Positions 1,890 through 11,276 of a stretch of DNA of 41,052 nucleotides are shown piece after piece. The notes under the pieces were generated by a model. It worked only from the letters and a program-made list of their open reading frames with translations. It ran no database searches and was not told the origin of the DNA. Within the stretch, counting starts at the first letter, position 1. Every line of letters starts with the position of its first letter. The stretch spans positions 1 through 41,052 of the forward strand of contig JAICNY010000002.1 in the NCBI GenBank assembly GCA_025930955.1. The letters run 5' to 3'. This DNA is from Thermoleophilia bacterium. GTDB taxonomy: Bacteria; Actinomycetota; Thermoleophilia; Gaiellales; Gaiellaceae. Made by a program: the position numbers and the translations under genes.

Positions 1890-2948
1890 ATGCAGGTGAA
1901 TCTGGAGAGCAGCTGGCAGATCGGCCCGGTGGAGATCCCGAGCCGGATCGTGCTCGCGCCGATGGCCGGCGTGAGCGTCCAGGCCTTCCGGCGCCAGGGC
2001 CGCCGCTACGGCGCCGGGCTCGTCTGCTCGGAGATGGTGAGCTGCGCCGGCCTCAGGCACCGGAACGAGCGGACGCTCGGCTACCTCCGCATCGGAAGCG
2101 ACGAGAGCCCACTCGCCGTGCAGATCTTCGGCTCCGACCCGGAAACGATGGCCGAGGCGGCGCGCATGGTCGAGGCGGCGGGCGCGGACATCGTGGACAT
2201 CAACTTCGGCTGCCCGGTCGGGAAGGTGACGAAGACGGGCGCCGGCGCGACGCTCCTCGAGGACCCGAAGCGCGCGGTAGCGATCGTCGGCGCGGTCGCC
2301 GACGCCGTCGAGACGCCCGTCACGGTGAAGATGCGCCGCGGGCTCGGGAACGGCTCGCGCGCCGCGCTCGAGCTCGGCCCCCGGCTCGCCGATGCGGGCG
2401 CCGCCGCGCTCACGCTCCACCCGCGCTCGGCGAAGCAGATGTACACCGGCACCGCCGACCACGGGCTCACGGCGGAGCTCGTCGAGCGCGTCGACGTCCC
2501 GGTGATCGCGTCCGGCGACATCACGTCGCGCGGGCGTGCGCTCGACGTCCTGGAGCAGACCGGAGCCGCCGCGGTCATGGTCGGGCGCGCCGCCCAGGGC
2601 GACCCGTGGACGGTGGGCGAGATCGCCGGGCTCGTGCACGAGCGGCCGTCGCGCGAGGAAGTGGTGGCCGAGCTTCTCCTCTTCATGCACGACACGGTCG
2701 AGGAGATGGGCGAGGAGCGGGCGACCGGGTTCCTGAAGAAGTTCTACGGCTGGTACCTCGGCCGTGGGCGCTTCCCGAAGCCGTTCAAGCAGGAGCTCGT
2801 CCGGCTCGCGACGGTCGCCGAGGTGGAGGAGCGGCTCCTCGCGGCCGCCCCCGGTGCCGGCGGGCACCTCGAGCGCCTGCGCGCCGAGACGCCCTCGCTC
2901 GAGCATACGACGCTCGACCTGCCCGTCTCGATCTACGCGGGCGGATGA
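1890..2948 (+). CDS. dusB: tRNA-dihydrouridine synthase (Dus/NifR3 family)
   Basis: IPSRIVLAPMAGVS...VDINFGCPVGKVTKTGAGATLL...VTVKMRRG...ASGDITS...AAVMVGRAAQGDPW. Confidence 0.95.
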   Translation: MQVNLESSWQIGPVEIPSRIVLAPMAGVSVQAFRRQGRRYGAGLVCSEMVSCAGLRHRNERTLGYLRIGSDESPLAVQIFGSDPETMAEAARMVEAAGADIVDINFGCPVGKVTKTGAGATLLEDPKRAVAIVGAVADAVETPVTVKMRRGLGNGSRAALELGPRLADAGAAALTLHPRSAKQMYTGTADHGLTAELVERVDVPVIASGDITSRGRALDVLEQTGAAAVMVGRAAQGDPWTVGEIAGLVHERPSREEVVAELLLFMHDTVEEMGEERATGFLKKFYGWYLGRGRFPKPFKQELVRLATVAEVEERLLAAAPGAGGHLERLRAETPSLEHTTLDLPVSIYAGG

Positions 2949-2990: not shown

Positions 2991-3857
2991 TTACGGGCTG
3001 GACATGGGATCGTCCGGGCGCTGCCGCGTCCCGACCGTCCCGACCTGCGTCTCCTCGTACTCGGATTCGGTCCCGACGCGGGACGGCGGCCCGGCGACGT
3101 CGTCGCCCTCGATCCGCTCGCGCGTGCGGTCGACGTCCTCCCGCGCCCGTTCGCGGCCGACCTGCAGGTCGCGGCGGACCTGCTCCGTCGAGGCCTGGCC
3201 CTTGACGTACGCGCCCTCGAGCATCCGCGCGGCGACCTCCCGGCCACCGAGGCCGAACGCGAGCGCCGCACCGAGCGCGATCGCGCCCATGAGCGCTGCG
3301 TACGTGATCGTCACGATCGTCTCGGCGATCATGAGCTGGTCGAGGATCATGAACACGGCGACCGCCATGATCAGGACCGGCACGACGGTCCCGACGACAC
3401 GGCCGGTCGGCGTGTCGCCCATCGTCCTGGCCACGAGCGCACCGGCCGCCGCCGCGATCGCGCTCGCGACGAGGAAGATGAGGAGCGCCGCGAGGACGTT
3501 CGGCAGGTACGCGAAGATCGCCCCCACGAAGTCCGTGAACGCCGCGATGCCGAGAATCGGGATCGCGATCGCGAGGACCCCCAGGAAGAGCGCCCAGAAG
3601 ACGATCCGCCCGAGCAGCCGCGACGGCCGTTCGGTCACCTTCGAGACGTACGTCCCGCCCTGCCCCGTCGTCAGCCGGTCGTCGAGCCTGCTCCGCCCCA
3701 GCAGCCGCGTGACGACGTTCGCCAGCACCTTCGCGACGAAGAAGCCGACGATGAGGACGACGAGAAACCCGATCAGGTTCGGGATGAACTCGAAGAACCC
3801 CTCGAACCCGTTACGGAGCTCGTCTCCCCAGCTCTCGTTTGCCTGTCCTAGCAGCAT
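2991..3857 (-). CDS. Membrane protein with MscS-like TM-helix repeats
   Basis: 288 aa; FIPNLIGFLVVLIVGFFVAKVLANVVTRLLGRSRLDD, several hydrophobic helices, charged C-terminal tail; GGGGGGAAC SD before ATG. Confidence 0.7.
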   Translation of the reverse strand: MLLGQANESWGDELRNGFEGFFEFIPNLIGFLVVLIVGFFVAKVLANVVTRLLGRSRLDDRLTTGQGGTYVSKVTERPSRLLGRIVFWALFLGVLAIAIPILGIAAFTDFVGAIFAYLPNVLAALLIFLVASAIAAAAGALVARTMGDTPTGRVVGTVVPVLIMAVAVFMILDQLMIAETIVTITYAALMGAIALGAALAFGLGGREVAARMLEGAYVKGQASTEQVRRDLQVGRERAREDVDRTRERIEGDDVAGPPSRVGTESEYEETQVGTVGTRQRPDDPMSSP

Positions 3858-3926
3858 GTTCCCCCCGTCGTTTCTTTGAGTTTTCGAACGAGGTAGCGGG
3901 ATCCCCGCCGCCGGAGCGCGCGAAAC

Positions 3927-3951
3927 GCGGGGCGGCGAGCGCCCGCCCCGC
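3927..3951. promoter_or_regulatory. Palindrome GCGGGGCGG-N7-CCGCCCCGC directly upstream of a TATAAC -10 box; candidate operator
   Basis: 9-bp perfect arms, 25 bp overall; next 6 nt are TATAAC (3952-3957), ATG at 3965. Confidence 0.55.
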
Positions 3952-3964
3952 TATAACTCGTCTC

Positions 3965-6900
3965 ATGGCCACGACGATCACCGGTGAGCGCCGGATCGTG
4001 TCGGTTCTGATCGCGGACGTCGTCAACTCGACGGGGATCGGCGAGCGGCTGGGGCCCGAGCGCTCGAAGTTCCTCATGGACGAGGTCCAGCGGATCATGA
4101 CCGCCCAGATCCGGCGCTACGACGGCACCGTCGTCCAGCGCGTCGGCGACGAGATCTTCGCCGTCTTTGGCGCGCCGGTCGCGCACGAGGACGACGGCGA
4201 GCGCGCCGTCCGCGCCGCGCTCTCGCTCCAGCGGGCGATCGCGCGCTACGCGGAGGAGGTGCGCGACGCCTACGAGGTCGAGCTGGCGGTGCGCGTCGGC
4301 GTCCACACGGGCCCGGTCGTCGTCCCGGGCGACGACGGCAAGGACATCGGCGAGCGCTGGAACGCGCTCGGCGACACGGTCAACGTCGCGTCGCGCCTGC
4401 AGGAGCTCGCCGCTCCGGGCGAGGTGGCCATGGGCGCCGAGACCGCCCGCCAGGTGGAGGGCTGCTTCGAGGTCGAGGAGCTCGGCGAGCACGAGCTCCA
4501 GGGCAAGAGCGCGCCGTTCGCGACCTTCACGGTGCGCGGCGTCCGCGACCCCGAGCGCCCCGCGCCGGAGGGCCCGCTCGTCGGGCGCGACTTCGAGCTG
4601 ACGGTGCTCGAGCGCGCGATGGACGGGCTGCGCGAGGGCAAAGGCGTGATCGTCTCCGTGATCGGCGAGGCCGGGATCGGCAAGTCGCGGCTCGCGGGCG
4701 AGGTGCGCGCGGAGTACGGCGACGCGATCCGCTTCGTCGAGGGCCGCGCGGTCTCGTACGCGCAGAGCTTCCCCTACTCGCCGGTCCGGGATCTGCTCCG
4801 GAGCTGGCTCGGCGTCGGCGCCTCGACGCCCGAGACGCGGGTGCGGCTCGAGCTCAAGACGCAGATCGCCGGCCTCTTCGGCGAGCACGCAGACGAGGCG
4901 TACCCGTTTCTCGCGAACCTCCTCGGCCTGACGCTCGAGCCCGACGCGGCCGAGCGCGTCCGCGAGCTCAACCGCGAGAGCGTGCAGCACCAGACGTACG
5001 AGGTCTTCGCCGAGCTCGTCTGCCGGCTCTCGAGCGAGCTCCCGCTCTGCCTCGTCCTCGAAGACCTCCACTGGGCGGACGAGGCGACGCTCGAGCTGCT
5101 CGAGGAGACCCTGCGCGTGACCGAGGAGGCGGCGGTCGGGTTCCTGTTCCTCCACCGCACCGAGCGGGAGCACCGCTCCTGGCACCTCGGCGAGCGCGCG
5201 CGGCAGATGTACCCGCACCGCTACCGGGAGATCGAGCTGCGCCCGCTGCCGGGCGACGCGAGCCGCCTGCTCGTCGAGGAGGCGGCCGACGGCGAGCTGC
5301 CGGCGTCCGTCGAGGAGCTCCTCGTCGAGCGTGCCGGGGGAAACCCGTTCTTCCTCCAGGAGGCCTTCCGCGACCTCGTGGAGCGCGGCGCGCTACAGCG
5401 CTCCAACGGCTCCTGGAAGCTCGCCGTCGACGCCGACGAGCTCGCGGTGCCGGCCCTCGTCCAGGGCGCGCTGCAGGCGCGGCTCGACCGGCTCGATCCC
5501 GGCACGCGCGAGGTGCTCTCGATCGCGGCCGTCGCCGGGCGGACGTTCGGGCTCCCGCTCCTCGAGACGCTCGTCCCGCCGGAGCGCGTCCGCCTCGCCC
5601 TGAGCGAGCTCCAGCGGCTCGACCTGATCGTCGAGGTGCGGCGGCGCCCGACGCCGGAGTACCGCTTCCGCCACGGGCTCGTCCAGGAGGTCTCGTACTC
5701 GACGCTCGTCGAGCCGACGCGCCGCGAGCTGCACCGCCGCGTCGGCGAGGCGCTCGAGGCGCTGTACGACGAGTCCCGCGAGGAGATCTTCGACCTGCTC
5801 GCGCGTCACTTCACGGAGGCCGACGAGCCGGAGAAGGCGGTCGAGTACCTCCTGGCCGCCGGGGACAAGGCGCGCCAGCTCTACGCCGACCAGGAGGCGC
5901 TCGAGCACTACCGAAGGGCGCGCTCCTTCCTCGCCCGAATGCGCGACGAGCGGCGGGCGCGCGACACGCTCTTCAAGATGGCGCTCGCGCACCACCTCGC
6001 GTTCGACTTCGAGCAGGCGGAGGAGGCCTACGACGAGGCGTTCTGCTGCCGCGTCGACCCCGCGCCGCGACCGCAGCCGACCGAGCGGATCACGACCGCC
6101 GCGCTCGCCCCGGACGACGTGACTCCCGGCGAGTCGTACACGAGCGAGGGCGCGCACTTCATCTCGCACCTCTTCCATGGGCTCCTGCTCGTCGACCGGG
6201 AGCTGAACGTCGTGCCGGCGATGGCCGACAACATGCGCGTCTCGAGCGACGGCCTCACGTACCTCTTCCGGCTGCGCGAGGACGCGAAGTGGAGCGACGG
6301 CGAGCCCGTGACGGCGGACGACTTCCTCTACGCGTGGGAGCGGGTGCGCGAGGAGCAGCCGATCACGGTGTTCCTCATGGAGGACATCGAGGGTTACCAG
6401 GCGCTCGACGACCGCACGCTCGAGGTGCGGCTGCGCGAGCCGCGCAGCTACTTCCCGTACATCCTCGCCTCGAACTGGTCGTTCCCGCGCCCGAAGCACC
6501 TGTGCGAGCGGCTCGGCGAGGACTGGTCGAAGCCCGAGAACCTCGTCACGAACGGGCCGTACACGCTCGAGCAGCTCTCCGACGAGGGCGCCCTGCTCGT
6601 CGCGAACCCGCACTGGGCGGGCCCGCGCGGCAACGTCCGCGAGATCGAGGTGCGCTTCGCGGGCGAGTCGACGACGCTCGTCGAGGAGTGGATCTCGGGG
6701 CGCTACGACGTCCTCCAGGCGCACGACCCGGAGACGCGCGACGCGCCGGACACGGTCGGCGACCTCATCCCGGAGCTCTCGCTCACGTACGTCGGCTTCC
6801 GGCCCGACCGCGGGCCGTTCGCGAACGAGCTCGTCCGCAAGGCGTTCGCGCACGCGATCGACCGCGAGGCGGTGCGGCCCGGGCGGTTCGGGCTCCTCAC

Positions 6901-7501
6901 GGCGGCGACCCGGGGCGGCGCGATCCCGCCGGCGATGCCGGGCCACTCGCACCGGGTCGCGCTCGGCTACGAGCCGGACCTCGCGCGGAAGCTCCTCGCG
7001 GACGCGGGCTATCCGGAGGGGAAGGGCCTCCCTGAGATCGGGCTCGTCTCGTCGCACCGCGACGAGCTCACGGAGCGCCTCGCCGAGCAGTGGCACGAGG
7101 TGCTCGGCGCGCGCGTGGCGGTCCGGCACTCCCCCGGCCACCTGTGGGCCGAGAACCTCGGCGACGACGACCTGTGGGTCTCAGGCTGGACGGCGGACTA
7201 CCCCGACCCGGACGGGTTCTTCCGCGGGCTCTTCAAGGCGTCAGGCTGGCCGTTCTACCGCGACGCGGAGATCGAGGACGTCCTCGAGCGCGCTCGCTCC
7301 CTCCAGAACCAGGGCGAGCGGATGCGCCTCTACCACGAGCTCGACCGGCTCTGGGTGAACGAGCGCGCGGCGATCATGCCGCTCTTCTACGGGCGGACGC
7401 TCATCTTGCGACGGCCGTGGGTCGAGGGCGTCTGGGCGACGCCCCTCACGCGCGTCCAGCTCGGCGAGGTCGTCGTGACGAAGACCGGCGACGCGGGCTA
7501 G
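3965..7501 (+). CDS. Class III adenylate/guanylate cyclase - AAA_16/STAND ATPase - short TPR - SBP_bac_5 (OppA-like) fusion protein
   Basis: Cyclase: VLIADVVNSTGIGERL, RVGDEIFAVFG, LGDTVNVASRLQ. ATPase: GEAGIGKSRLAGE (Walker A), LCLVLEDLHWADEATLELLEE (Walker B). TPR-like EKAVEYLLAAGDKARQLYADQEALEHYRRA. SBP_bac_5: VVPAMADNMRVSSDGLTYLFRLREDAKWSDGEPVTADDFLYAWERV...NGPYTLEQL...RKAFAHAIDREAV...ARKLLADAGYPEGKGLP...WTADYPDPDGFF. No signal peptide or TM seen. Confidence 0.92.
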   Translation: MATTITGERRIVSVLIADVVNSTGIGERLGPERSKFLMDEVQRIMTAQIRRYDGTVVQRVGDEIFAVFGAPVAHEDDGERAVRAALSLQRAIARYAEEVRDAYEVELAVRVGVHTGPVVVPGDDGKDIGERWNALGDTVNVASRLQELAAPGEVAMGAETARQVEGCFEVEELGEHELQGKSAPFATFTVRGVRDPERPAPEGPLVGRDFELTVLERAMDGLREGKGVIVSVIGEAGIGKSRLAGEVRAEYGDAIRFVEGRAVSYAQSFPYSPVRDLLRSWLGVGASTPETRVRLELKTQIAGLFGEHADEAYPFLANLLGLTLEPDAAERVRELNRESVQHQTYEVFAELVCRLSSELPLCLVLEDLHWADEATLELLEETLRVTEEAAVGFLFLHRTEREHRSWHLGERARQMYPHRYREIELRPLPGDASRLLVEEAADGELPASVEELLVERAGGNPFFLQEAFRDLVERGALQRSNGSWKLAVDADELAVPALVQGALQARLDRLDPGTREVLSIAAVAGRTFGLPLLETLVPPERVRLALSELQRLDLIVEVRRRPTPEYRFRHGLVQEVSYSTLVEPTRRELHRRVGEALEALYDESREEIFDLLARHFTEADEPEKAVEYLLAAGDKARQLYADQEALEHYRRARSFLARMRDERRARDTLFKMALAHHLAFDFEQAEEAYDEAFCCRVDPAPRPQPTERITTAALAPDDVTPGESYTSEGAHFISHLFHGLLLVDRELNVVPAMADNMRVSSDGLTYLFRLREDAKWSDGEPVTADDFLYAWERVREEQPITVFLMEDIEGYQALDDRTLEVRLREPRSYFPYILASNWSFPRPKHLCERLGEDWSKPENLVTNGPYTLEQLSDEGALLVANPHWAGPRGNVREIEVRFAGESTTLVEEWISGRYDVLQAHDPETRDAPDTVGDLIPELSLTYVGFRPDRGPFANELVRKAFAHAIDREAVRPGRFGLLTAATRGGAIPPAMPGHSHRVALGYEPDLARKLLADAGYPEGKGLPEIGLVSSHRDELTERLAEQWHEVLGARVAVRHSPGHLWAENLGDDDLWVSGWTADYPDPDGFFRGLFKASGWPFYRDAEIEDVLERARSLQNQGERMRLYHELDRLWVNERAAIMPLFYGRTLILRRPWVEGVWATPLTRVQLGEVVVTKTGDAG

Positions 7502-8274
7502 CCACGCCCGTCGCGGTTCCGTTCCCAGACGAGGCGCAGCCCTTCGAGCGTGAGGAACGGGTCGACGAGCTCGATCGCCTCGGAGTGCGGCGCGATCAGG
7601 TCGGCGAGCCCGCCCGTCGCGACGACGCGGGTGCCCTCGCCGAGCTCCGCCCGCATGCGCTCGACGATTCCGTCCACCTGGCCGGCGAAGCCGAAGACGA
7701 CGCCCGACTGGAGCGCGGCCGCCGTGGACGTCCCGATCGTCCGCTCCGGCTCGACGAAGTCGACCTGGCGCAGGCGCGCGGCGCGGGCGAAGAGCGCGTC
7801 CATCGAGACCTCGATCCCCGGGGCGAGGACGCCGCCGACGTACTCTCCCGCCGCGGAGACGGCGTCGAAGTTCGTCGACGTGCCGAAGTCGACGACGATG
7901 CAGGGCGTCCCGTAGCGCTCGCGGGCGGCGACGGCATTCGCGACGCGGTCGGGGCCGACCTCGCGCGGGTCGTCGTAGCGGAGCGGCACGCCGGTGCGCG
8001 TGCCCGGCCCGACCACGAGGAGCGGCGCCTCCGCGTAGCGCCCGGCAAGCTCGGTGTACGCGCGGACGAGGGCCGGGACGGTCGTCGAGAGGCAGACGCC
8101 GGACACGTCCTCGAAGCCGAGGTCGCGGAGCTCGAGCAGCCGCCCGACGAGCGCGCCGACCTCGTCGCCGGTGCGCTCCGCCTCGGTGGCGACGCGCCAG
8201 TGCTCGACGAGGCGCTCGCCCTCGAAGAGCGCGAAGACCGTCTGTGTGTTCCCGACGTCGATCGCGAGGAGCAT
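7498..8274 (-). CDS. coaX: Type III pantothenate kinase
   Basis: MLLAIDVGNTQTVFALFEGE...VVDFGTSTNFDAVSAAGEYVGGVLAPGIEVSMDALFARAARL. Confidence 0.96.
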   Translation of the reverse strand: MLLAIDVGNTQTVFALFEGERLVEHWRVATEAERTGDEVGALVGRLLELRDLGFEDVSGVCLSTTVPALVRAYTELAGRYAEAPLLVVGPGTRTGVPLRYDDPREVGPDRVANAVAARERYGTPCIVVDFGTSTNFDAVSAAGEYVGGVLAPGIEVSMDALFARAARLRQVDFVEPERTIGTSTAAALQSGVVFGFAGQVDGIVERMRAELGEGTRVVATGGLADLIAPHSEAIELVDPFLTLEGLRLVWERNRDGRG

Positions 8275-8298
8275 CGTGATCGCGCCCGGCGGCCGGAG

Positions 8299-8667
8299 CT
8301 AGGCCGGCTCGTCGTCGCCGGAGATCGACTCACCGAGCTTCTCGGCGAGCGCCTCGGGCGTGAGGGCGGGCTCCTCGCCCTCGCCGCGCAGCTCCTCGAT
8401 CGTGACGTCGCTCGACGTGTAGACCTCGGCGCGCGGGATCATCCGGGTCGGCCGGTTCTTGTCCCAGACCCAGACGTCCTCCATCGTCAGGTGGAAGAAC
8501 GGATAGCTCGTCTGCGGCAGCACCTTGAGGTCCAGCTTGTTGCAGAGGTACGTCGAGTCCTGCGTCACGACGCAGTAGCGAAAGAGGCCGAAGACGGCCG
8601 TGTACTCGCGCTTGAGCCGAAGCTCGAGATCGGCCTCGTACTCGTCGAGGTCGTCGAGGTGCGACAT
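8299..8667 (-). CDS. DUF2469-like conserved actinobacterial protein
   Basis: MSHLDDLDEYEADLELRLKREYTAVFGLFRYCVVTQDSTYLCNKLDLKV...VWVWDKNRPTRMIPRAEVYTSSDVTIEEL; start chosen by TAGAAT box 7 nt upstream of ATG 8667. Confidence 0.7.
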   Translation of the reverse strand: MSHLDDLDEYEADLELRLKREYTAVFGLFRYCVVTQDSTYLCNKLDLKVLPQTSYPFFHLTMEDVWVWDKNRPTRMIPRAEVYTSSDVTIEELRGEGEEPALTPEALAEKLGESISGDDEPA

Positions 8668-8677
8668 GGATCGCATT

Positions 8678-9145
8678 CTAGAGGTCTGGGGGCAGGGTTC
8701 CGAGGATCGCGGCCAGGCTGCGGCCGTCGGGGAGCGCGAGTGCGGGATCGAGCTCGACGAGCGGCTCGAGGGCGAATCGCCGCTCGTGGAGGCGCGGGTG
8801 CGGAACGGTGAGGCCCGGCTCGTCGATCGTCTCCCCGCCGTAGAGCAGGAGGTCGAGGTCGATCGTACGCGGGCCGAAGCGCGGCCCGGTGCGCTCGCGC
8901 CCGAGCGCGCGCTCGACGGCGAGGAGGCGGTCGAGGAGCTCCCGCGCGCCGAGCGTGGTCTCGAGGCGGGCGGCGCCGTTCAGGAAGGGGGGCTGGTCGG
9001 TGTAGCCGACGGGGGCGGTCTCGCGCAGGCTCGAGGTCGCGGTGACGGAGATGTCGGGCTCGGCGTCGAGGCGGGCGAGCGCCTCTTCGATCGTGGCGCG
9101 GCGATCACCGAGGTTGGCGCCGAGGCCGACGTAGGCGATCGTCAC
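8678..9145 (-). CDS. folK: 2-amino-4-hydroxy-6-hydroxymethyldihydropteridine diphosphokinase
   Basis: YVGLGANLGDRRATIEEALARL...FLNGAARLETTL...GPRFGPRTIDLDLLLYGG. Confidence 0.96.
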   Translation of the reverse strand: MTIAYVGLGANLGDRRATIEEALARLDAEPDISVTATSSLRETAPVGYTDQPPFLNGAARLETTLGARELLDRLLAVERALGRERTGPRFGPRTIDLDLLLYGGETIDEPGLTVPHPRLHERRFALEPLVELDPALALPDGRSLAAILGTLPPDL

Positions 9146-10733: not shown

Positions 10734-11276
10734 CTAATCGCCGGCGATGAAGAACTGCCAGGTGCCGTTGGCCGCGATGCCGGTGCGCCAGCCGAGGTAG
10801 CCGCTGCCGTCGCCGTAGAGCTCGGCCAGGTCGCCGAGGAGCTCCCGTTCGTGCTCGGTCAGCTCGTCCTCCGGCGTGTCGAAGGCGAACGGCCAGATGT
10901 AGAGGCCGCCGACCAGTGTGTACGGCATGCGGAGGATTCGGGCGAGGATCTCGATCGGACTGTCCTCGCCCTCCTGCTCGACCATCTGCCAGTACGCGAT
11001 CGGCCCGCCCTCGTCGGGAAGCCCGAACGTGTACGAGAACTCGTCGTGCAGGAACGGCCGCAGCGCCTCGTAGTCCCCCGACTCCGCGGCCGCGAGCAGC
11101 CCCGCGTGCGTCTCCGCGACCGCGTCGGGCAACCCGACGGCCGTCGGCTCGGAGACCGTCTCCGTCACCGTCTCCGTGACCGTCTCGCTCTCGCTCACGG
11201 TCGTCGTCACCGTCTCCGTCCCGCCGCACCCGACGACCGCGACCGCGACGACCGCGCCGAGGAGGAACCCTCGCAT
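10734..11276 (-). CDS. Predicted lipoprotein with Thr/Val/Glu-rich linker
   Basis: MRGFLLGAVVAVAVVGCGGTETVTTTVSESETVTETVTETVSEP; lipobox VVGC; TACAGT box 6 nt before ATG. Confidence 0.8.
   Translation of the reverse strand: MRGFLLGAVVAVAVVGCGGTETVTTTVSESETVTETVTETVSEPTAVGLPDAVAETHAGLLAAAESGDYEALRPFLHDEFSYTFGLPDEGGPIAYWQMVEQEGEDSPIEILARILRMPYTLVGGLYIWPFAFDTPEDELTEHERELLGDLAELYGDGSGYLGWRTGIAANGTWQFFIAGD

Follow-up and report, generated by a model that had tools for sequence, protein, structure and literature searches.

A predicted cytoplasmic fusion of a nucleotide cyclase, a STAND ATPase and an OppA-like binding domain in Thermoleophilia

Domain architecture and predicted location

The stretch of DNA analysed here (the window) comprises 41,052 nucleotides from the draft genome of a Thermoleophilia bacterium, a soil or sediment actinobacterium, and carries on its plus strand a large fusion gene (positions 3965-7501) encoding a protein of 1178 amino acids. 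The open reading frame is uninterrupted and free of frameshifts, and we delimited its domains by Pfam matches and by alignment with 15 full-length homologues. From the N terminus, the protein contains a class III nucleotide cyclase domain (residues 12-188; 3998-4528, plus strand), a STAND-type NTPase with a winged-helix-like segment (residues 204 to ~590; 4574-5734, plus strand), a short helical stub resembling tetratricopeptide repeats (TPR; residues ~591-702; 5735-6070, plus strand), and a complete OppA-like solute-binding protein (SBP) domain of the SBP_bac_5 family (residues ~706-1165; 6080-7459, plus strand). All Pfam matches exceed their curated cut-offs: Guanylate_cyc (PF00211) scores 76.2 bits over residues 12-188 (cut-off 21.9), AAA_16 (PF13191) scores 89 bits over residues 204-388 (cut-off 32.6), and SBP_bac_5 (PF00496) scores 213 bits over residues 748-1095 (cut-off 32.4), spanning profile positions 1-366 of 368. 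These results confirm the initial annotation of this DNA, which was made from the letters alone and described one intact reading frame with a cyclase, a STAND ATPase and a full SBP_bac_5 domain. The SBP_bac_5 domain that it expected a hidden Markov model search to find at the C terminus is there, and none of the outcomes it listed against its reading (a missing SBP match, a frameshift or an export signal) appeared. The gene is thus predicted to encode a single large cytoplasmic polypeptide in which a nucleotide cyclase and a molecular-switch ATPase are combined with a peptide-receptor fold that is usually extracellular.

The cytoplasmic assignment draws on both the protein and its start site. 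A hydropathy scan of the fusion protein revealed neither a signal peptide nor a transmembrane helix; the highest 19-residue Kyte-Doolittle mean was 1.59, within the NTPase, and no segment reached transmembrane strength. The start codon, ATG 3965, agrees with the 15 full-length homologues, whose first residues match it exactly or lie only a few positions away. Seven nucleotides upstream of the ATG lies a -10-like element, TATAAC (3952-3957, plus strand), which is conserved at nearly fixed spacing in 12 genes of the window's own clade (clade A, below), while the flanking bases vary. The hexamer reads TATAAC in all six genes at the window's locus, TACAAT in L014, and TAGACT, CAGACT or CACACT in the f2 genes. 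This pattern is that of a leaderless actinobacterial gene, and the fusion gene looks leaderless. Because the leaderless-type pattern fixes the start, an overlooked N-terminal signal peptide is strongly disfavoured, and the absent signal together with this start rules out the alternative of an exported protein. The lack of a signal peptide or membrane helix, proposed earlier, is therefore borne out by the low hydropathy maximum and the conserved start, and a cytoplasmic location is supported. We found no Pfam match to a helix-turn-helix (HTH) domain in the fusion, whose N terminus is the cyclase, and no Rfam match in window positions 3000-9000.

The residues expected of both enzymatic modules are conserved. 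In an alignment of 16 proteins that are 38-76% identical to the window protein, the metal-binding residues Asp18 and Asp62 and the transition-state residues Asn140 and Arg144 of the cyclase were invariant. The same was true of the NTPase motifs GxxGIGK(S/T) and (E/D)DLHW, the sensor-type Arg398 and the GNP sequence at residues 459-461 (GxP motif); in the window protein the Walker A motif is GEAGIGKS (residues 234-241) and the Walker B motif is LVLEDLHWAD. The roles of these cyclase and NTPase residues are established for their families. From its sequence pattern and the structural model, the helical segment at residues 497-579 is a putative winged helix. The Lys/Asp pair by which adenylyl cyclases select their purine is absent, replaced by Gln58/Asn133 in clade A and by other residues in clade B; it is likewise changed in unfused STAND cyclases, and class III membership is unaffected. 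With Gln58/Asn133 in place of Lys/Asp, the choice between ATP and GTP, and thus between cAMP and cGMP, is not predictable from sequence. Class III cyclases that hold all catalytic residues in one domain are expected to homodimerise, and because the fusion is of this kind, we expect its cyclase domains to form a homodimer, which fits with the neighbouring NTPase being one that oligomerises.

Comparison with unfused proteins shows where the architecture departs from the usual one. The closest unfused relatives, which are 34-40% identical to the window protein over residues 1 to ~700, continue after the cyclase-NTPase part with a TPR-type tail of ~485-524 residues (for example L038, L039 and L040). 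The fused proteins retain only ~110 residues of TPR-like region, modelled by AlphaFold as helices (residues 583-694) and without a Pfam TPR match in the stub, and pass directly into the SBP domain from residue ~706. The ~500-residue tails of the unfused relatives thus support the earlier suggestion that an SBP domain stands in place of a long TPR sensor.

The SBP domain and the history of the fusion

The SBP part of the protein matches OppA by phmmer (3.9e-42). An AlphaFold model of the full-length clade-A protein, built with the family alignment, has a mean per-residue confidence (pLDDT) of 82, with most of the SBP domain at 80-95, and a model of the clade-B TPR and SBP region has a pLDDT of 88 and a pTM of 0.88. 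The modelling, which had been suggested as a check on the domains, gives a full-length SBP. When searched with Foldseek, both models returned as their best PDB matches DppE, OppA and MppA, which bind oligopeptides or murein peptides, with a probability of 1.00 and a TMt of ~0.8 to DppE and OppA. Most of the free-standing SBPs that we compared have a signal- or lipobox-like segment at their N terminus, which the fused ones lack.

In OppA, Asp419 binds the amino terminus of the peptide ligand. The residue of the window protein that aligns with it, Asp1078, lies within GWTADYPDP, and its position separates the two clades of the family: it is Asp in 12/12 clade-A proteins, which include the window's, and Gly in 15/15 clade-B proteins, while most free-standing relatives have Asp. 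In the clade-B SBPs (L021-L024, L189-L194) the Gly is part of a W(L/F)PGYxDPEY motif that hardly varies, a conservation which suggests a changed, shared ligand and not decay. The ratio of nonsynonymous to synonymous substitution (dN/dS) of the SBP is 0.26-0.42, and in the L015/L035 and L001/L009 pairs it is the highest of all domains. The ratio is below 1 for every domain (0.05-0.42), and as judged from these ratios all domains of the fusion are under purifying selection.

A search for the same architecture and its taxonomic spread, suggested along with the initial annotation, recovered the fusion from at least 36 genomes of a single phylum, at one copy per genome. The survey covered 129 genomes of the window's order and 397 genomes of the phylum. 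Of the 129, 28 carry the fusion and another has a copy truncated where its contig stops; a second order contributed 7 out of 27 genomes, and a third family a single genome. A sample of the class had pointed to a restriction to one order, and the phylum sample overturned it. The named records are metagenome-assembled genomes labelled 'Thermoleophilia bacterium' or 'Actinomycetota bacterium'. In a tree of the cyclase-NTPase part with 28 unfused controls, 27 fused proteins formed one clade (99/96). In a tree of the SBP part, 27 fused domains were split from 18 free-standing SBPs by a single branch (100/98), and clades A (12 proteins) and B (15 proteins) were each supported at 100/100. The fused sets of the two trees overlap in all but two rows. 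Because the fused proteins form one clade in both trees, a single fusion event and joint evolution of the parts thereafter explain the family most simply. At the thresholds used, no other effector domain was found fused to this SBP in the 129 genomes of the order and the 397 of the phylum.

Several irregular copies emerged from the survey. Four genes (L127 in G064, L137 in G075, L132 in G117 and L133 in G127) contain one in-frame stop each, which would reflect decay or draft-genome error; sister genomes hold intact copies. At L150 (277-10733, G024:C292), two more genes of the cyclase-AAA-TPR type lie in tandem behind the fusion, so that three STAND cyclases are clustered. In the window's genome, an open frame of 1092 residues (C236) matches the SBP part; we rejected it as a second fusion, since it represents a normal exported SBP within a long frame. 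A split gene in G009 was likewise set aside as a candidate two-gene state, because masked or unknown bases, translated as X, fall at the break.

Genomic surroundings

The fusion gene lies between two housekeeping genes that mark the ancestral site. To its left is dus, encoding a dihydrouridine synthase (1890-2948, plus strand; Pfam Dus, 246 bits), and to its right is coaX, encoding a type III pantothenate kinase (7498-8274, minus strand; Pfam Pan_kinase, 231 bits), which converges on the fusion gene such that the stop codons overlap. Relatives without the fusion at this site (G030, G065, G014 and G018) have dus and coaX as convergent neighbours ~8-180 bp apart. Since the two genes converge where the fusion is absent, the insertion took place at a convergent junction without splitting a minus-strand operon; the earlier statement that the fusion breaks a minus-strand housekeeping block is thus inexact. 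In the family relatives L034/L012, L009, L010, L011 and L014 and their kin, the gene adjoins coaX and, where the contig permits, dus, and this locus is the folK-folP-ftsH-tilS neighbourhood. The remaining family members occupy other loci and share no common partner, and no ABC transporter genes were found as conserved neighbours of the fusion. From this gene context, the fusion appears to behave as a stand-alone sensor.

A gene for a small membrane protein resembling mechanosensitive (MS) channels is also inserted at this site (2991-3857, minus strand). It matches only the helices of Pfam MS_channel_1st_1, and the MscS beta domain was not matched; among the loci checked, homologues occur at the same place only in L140 and L141. 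Farther along, the interval between folP and ftsH holds a short lipoprotein-like gene (10737-11276, minus strand; MRGFLLGAVVAVAVVGCGG...) that has no Pfam match and is conserved in L034/L143. Elsewhere, the window's genome contains five matches to the cNMP_binding domain, and the five proteins concerned could read the product of the cyclase.

A candidate intracellular receptor and its alternatives

Each part of the fusion has counterparts in characterised or widespread proteins. The cyclase-AAA_16(STAND)-TPR proteins of actinobacteria, Chloroflexota and others have the same N-terminal order of cyclase and NTPase, but end in the ~500-residue TPR-like tail in place of which the fusion has ~110 residues and a complete SBP_bac_5 domain. 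With OppA, DppE and MppA (SBP_bac_5, cluster C) the fusion has in common the fold, the family motifs and, in clade A, the amine-binding Asp; unlike them, its SBP lacks a signal peptide or lipobox, is predicted to be cytoplasmic, and forms part of a signalling enzyme. The atrial natriuretic peptide receptor guanylyl cyclases link, within a single polypeptide, a receptor domain resembling periplasmic binding proteins to a class III cyclase. Their cyclase domain matches that of the fusion, but these are membrane proteins with an extracellular type-I fold and a kinase-like middle, whereas the fusion has a cytoplasmic SBP_bac_5 domain and a STAND middle. The TOMM kinase/cyclase fusion model TIGR03903 aligns over residues 6-669 (cyclase, NTPase and TPR), from profile position 282, with 284.8 bits against a curated cut-off of 705.75, and the fusion has no kinase domain. 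SgrR of E. coli and DsvR of V. cholerae likewise use an intracellular SBP_bac_5 domain as the C-terminal sensor of a regulator (PMC13060122), but their output is an N-terminal DNA-binding HTH domain, whereas that of the fusion would be a cyclase acting through a STAND NTPase. Similarly, the STAND transcription factors MalT and AfsR place a nucleotide-binding oligomerisation domain (NOD) switch between an effector and a C-terminal sensor, as in the fusion (PMC6468293, PMC10936776); in MalT and AfsR the sensor is a TPR domain and the effector binds DNA, while in the fusion they are an SBP and a cyclase.

We favour, at a probability of about 0.6, the reading that the protein of the window's clade is an SBP-gated cytoplasmic STAND cyclase with a peptide-like ligand. 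Such a protein would be a one-component cytoplasmic receptor, a MalT-like STAND switch with cyclase output and a shortened TPR region capped by an OppA-like domain. Without ligand, the SBP/TPR arm would pack on the ADP-bound NTPase and keep the protein closed; a small cytoplasmic ligand would then close the lobes of the SBP and release the arm. For clade A the likeliest ligand would be a short peptide whose amino terminus is free, for example an imported oligopeptide or a recycled muropeptide. The NTPase would swap ADP for ATP and oligomerise, so that two cyclase domains could pair and form composite active sites, and the cAMP or cGMP made would be read by the cell's CRP-type proteins. We infer these steps from ligand to cyclase by analogy with MalT and PH0952, in which the ADP form is kept closed by contact between sensor and NOD until the inducer brings about ATP exchange and multimerisation (PMC6468293, PMC4381067); the identity of the ligand, the direction of regulation, oligomerisation, the nucleotide product and the target are likewise proposals. 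The wider view is that these proteins form a new receptor family, in which an internalised OppA-type domain replaces the TPR sensor and converts the intracellular oligopeptide level into cyclic nucleotide, the sister clade having switched ligand; this we advance tentatively, at slightly less than even odds. Of the interpretation first offered for this gene, then, the architecture, the cytoplasmic location and the exchange of TPR for SBP stand, and the gating mechanism is one that we infer; the kind of ligand is not the same throughout the family (clade B has Gly in 15/15).

Several observations weigh against an SBP-gated cyclase that senses peptides. Clade B lacks the amine-binding Asp, and a peptide ligand therefore does not hold for the whole family. 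The SBP is the fastest-evolving domain, with 69% identity in the closest pair as against 81-83% for the NTPase and cyclase. The full-length model has a pTM of 0.56 and leaves the domain arrangement and any sensor-NOD contact unfixed, Gln58/Asn133 single out neither cAMP nor cGMP as the product, and no operon partner that might hint at a ligand is conserved across the clades. The rapid change of the SBP and the near-uniform clade-B motif around the Gly would also be expected if the same SBP-gated STAND cyclase had its pocket re-purposed for a non-peptide ligand, such as a sugar, an opine-like compound, an antibiotic or a metal chelate. Family 5 SBPs also bind nickel complexes, agrocinopines, sialic acid, haem or glutathione, and the ligands proposed for the intracellular regulators SgrR and DsvR are sugar-related or other small molecules (PMC13060122). 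We nevertheless regard such a ligand as unlikely for the window's clade, where Asp1078 is kept in every protein and where the top matches in sequence and fold are OppA, DppE and MppA. The same rate of change, and the Gly in place of the Asp in clade B, could instead mean that the SBP no longer binds a ligand and serves as a scaffold or protein-protein module, with the NTPase answering a partner protein as in some STAND proteins; inhibitory proteins can control STAND proteins (MalT/MalY). This is decidedly improbable given the full-length two-lobed fold, the purifying selection on the SBP and the clade-specific conserved pocket motifs.

The adjacent MS-channel-like gene, together with weak PycC matches to the cyclase domain (best 41.8 bits), might suggest a defence sensor of the Pycsar or STAND type, in which the cyclase would alert an effector to phage infection. 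We consider the chances of this very slim: the PycC matches span only the generic cyclase domain; the neighbour has no Pfam cNMP-binding domain and so is no Pycsar effector; the membrane gene adjoins the fusion in only some relatives; and the fusion is a single-copy gene with housekeeping neighbours at one site in related genera. Finally, the window's draft genome is fragmented (259 contigs), as might be expected if two genes had been merged by assembly or annotation. Such an artefact has a negligible likelihood, since independently assembled genomes from dozens of species show single open frames with a conserved junction, and congruent trees; these many genomes rule out an assembly fusion.

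No NCBIfam equivalog fits the fusion, the OppA models matching only its C-terminal part and below cut-off, and our searches of open-access literature text turned up no account of a cyclase-STAND-SBP_bac_5 protein. Among the STAND cyclases the architecture of the fusion is new, although each of its parts was already known. The TPR superhelix of the very common cyclase-STAND-TPR proteins does not suggest their inducers, and the SBP swap supplies a sensor with a well-understood ligand pocket, making a STAND cyclase directly testable; the presence of Asp in clade A and Gly in clade B further provides a built-in contrast in specificity. If our reading is correct, the fusion would couple intracellular peptides to cyclic nucleotides within one protein, and would place a transport-receptor fold in the role of cytoplasmic sensor beside SgrR and DsvR.

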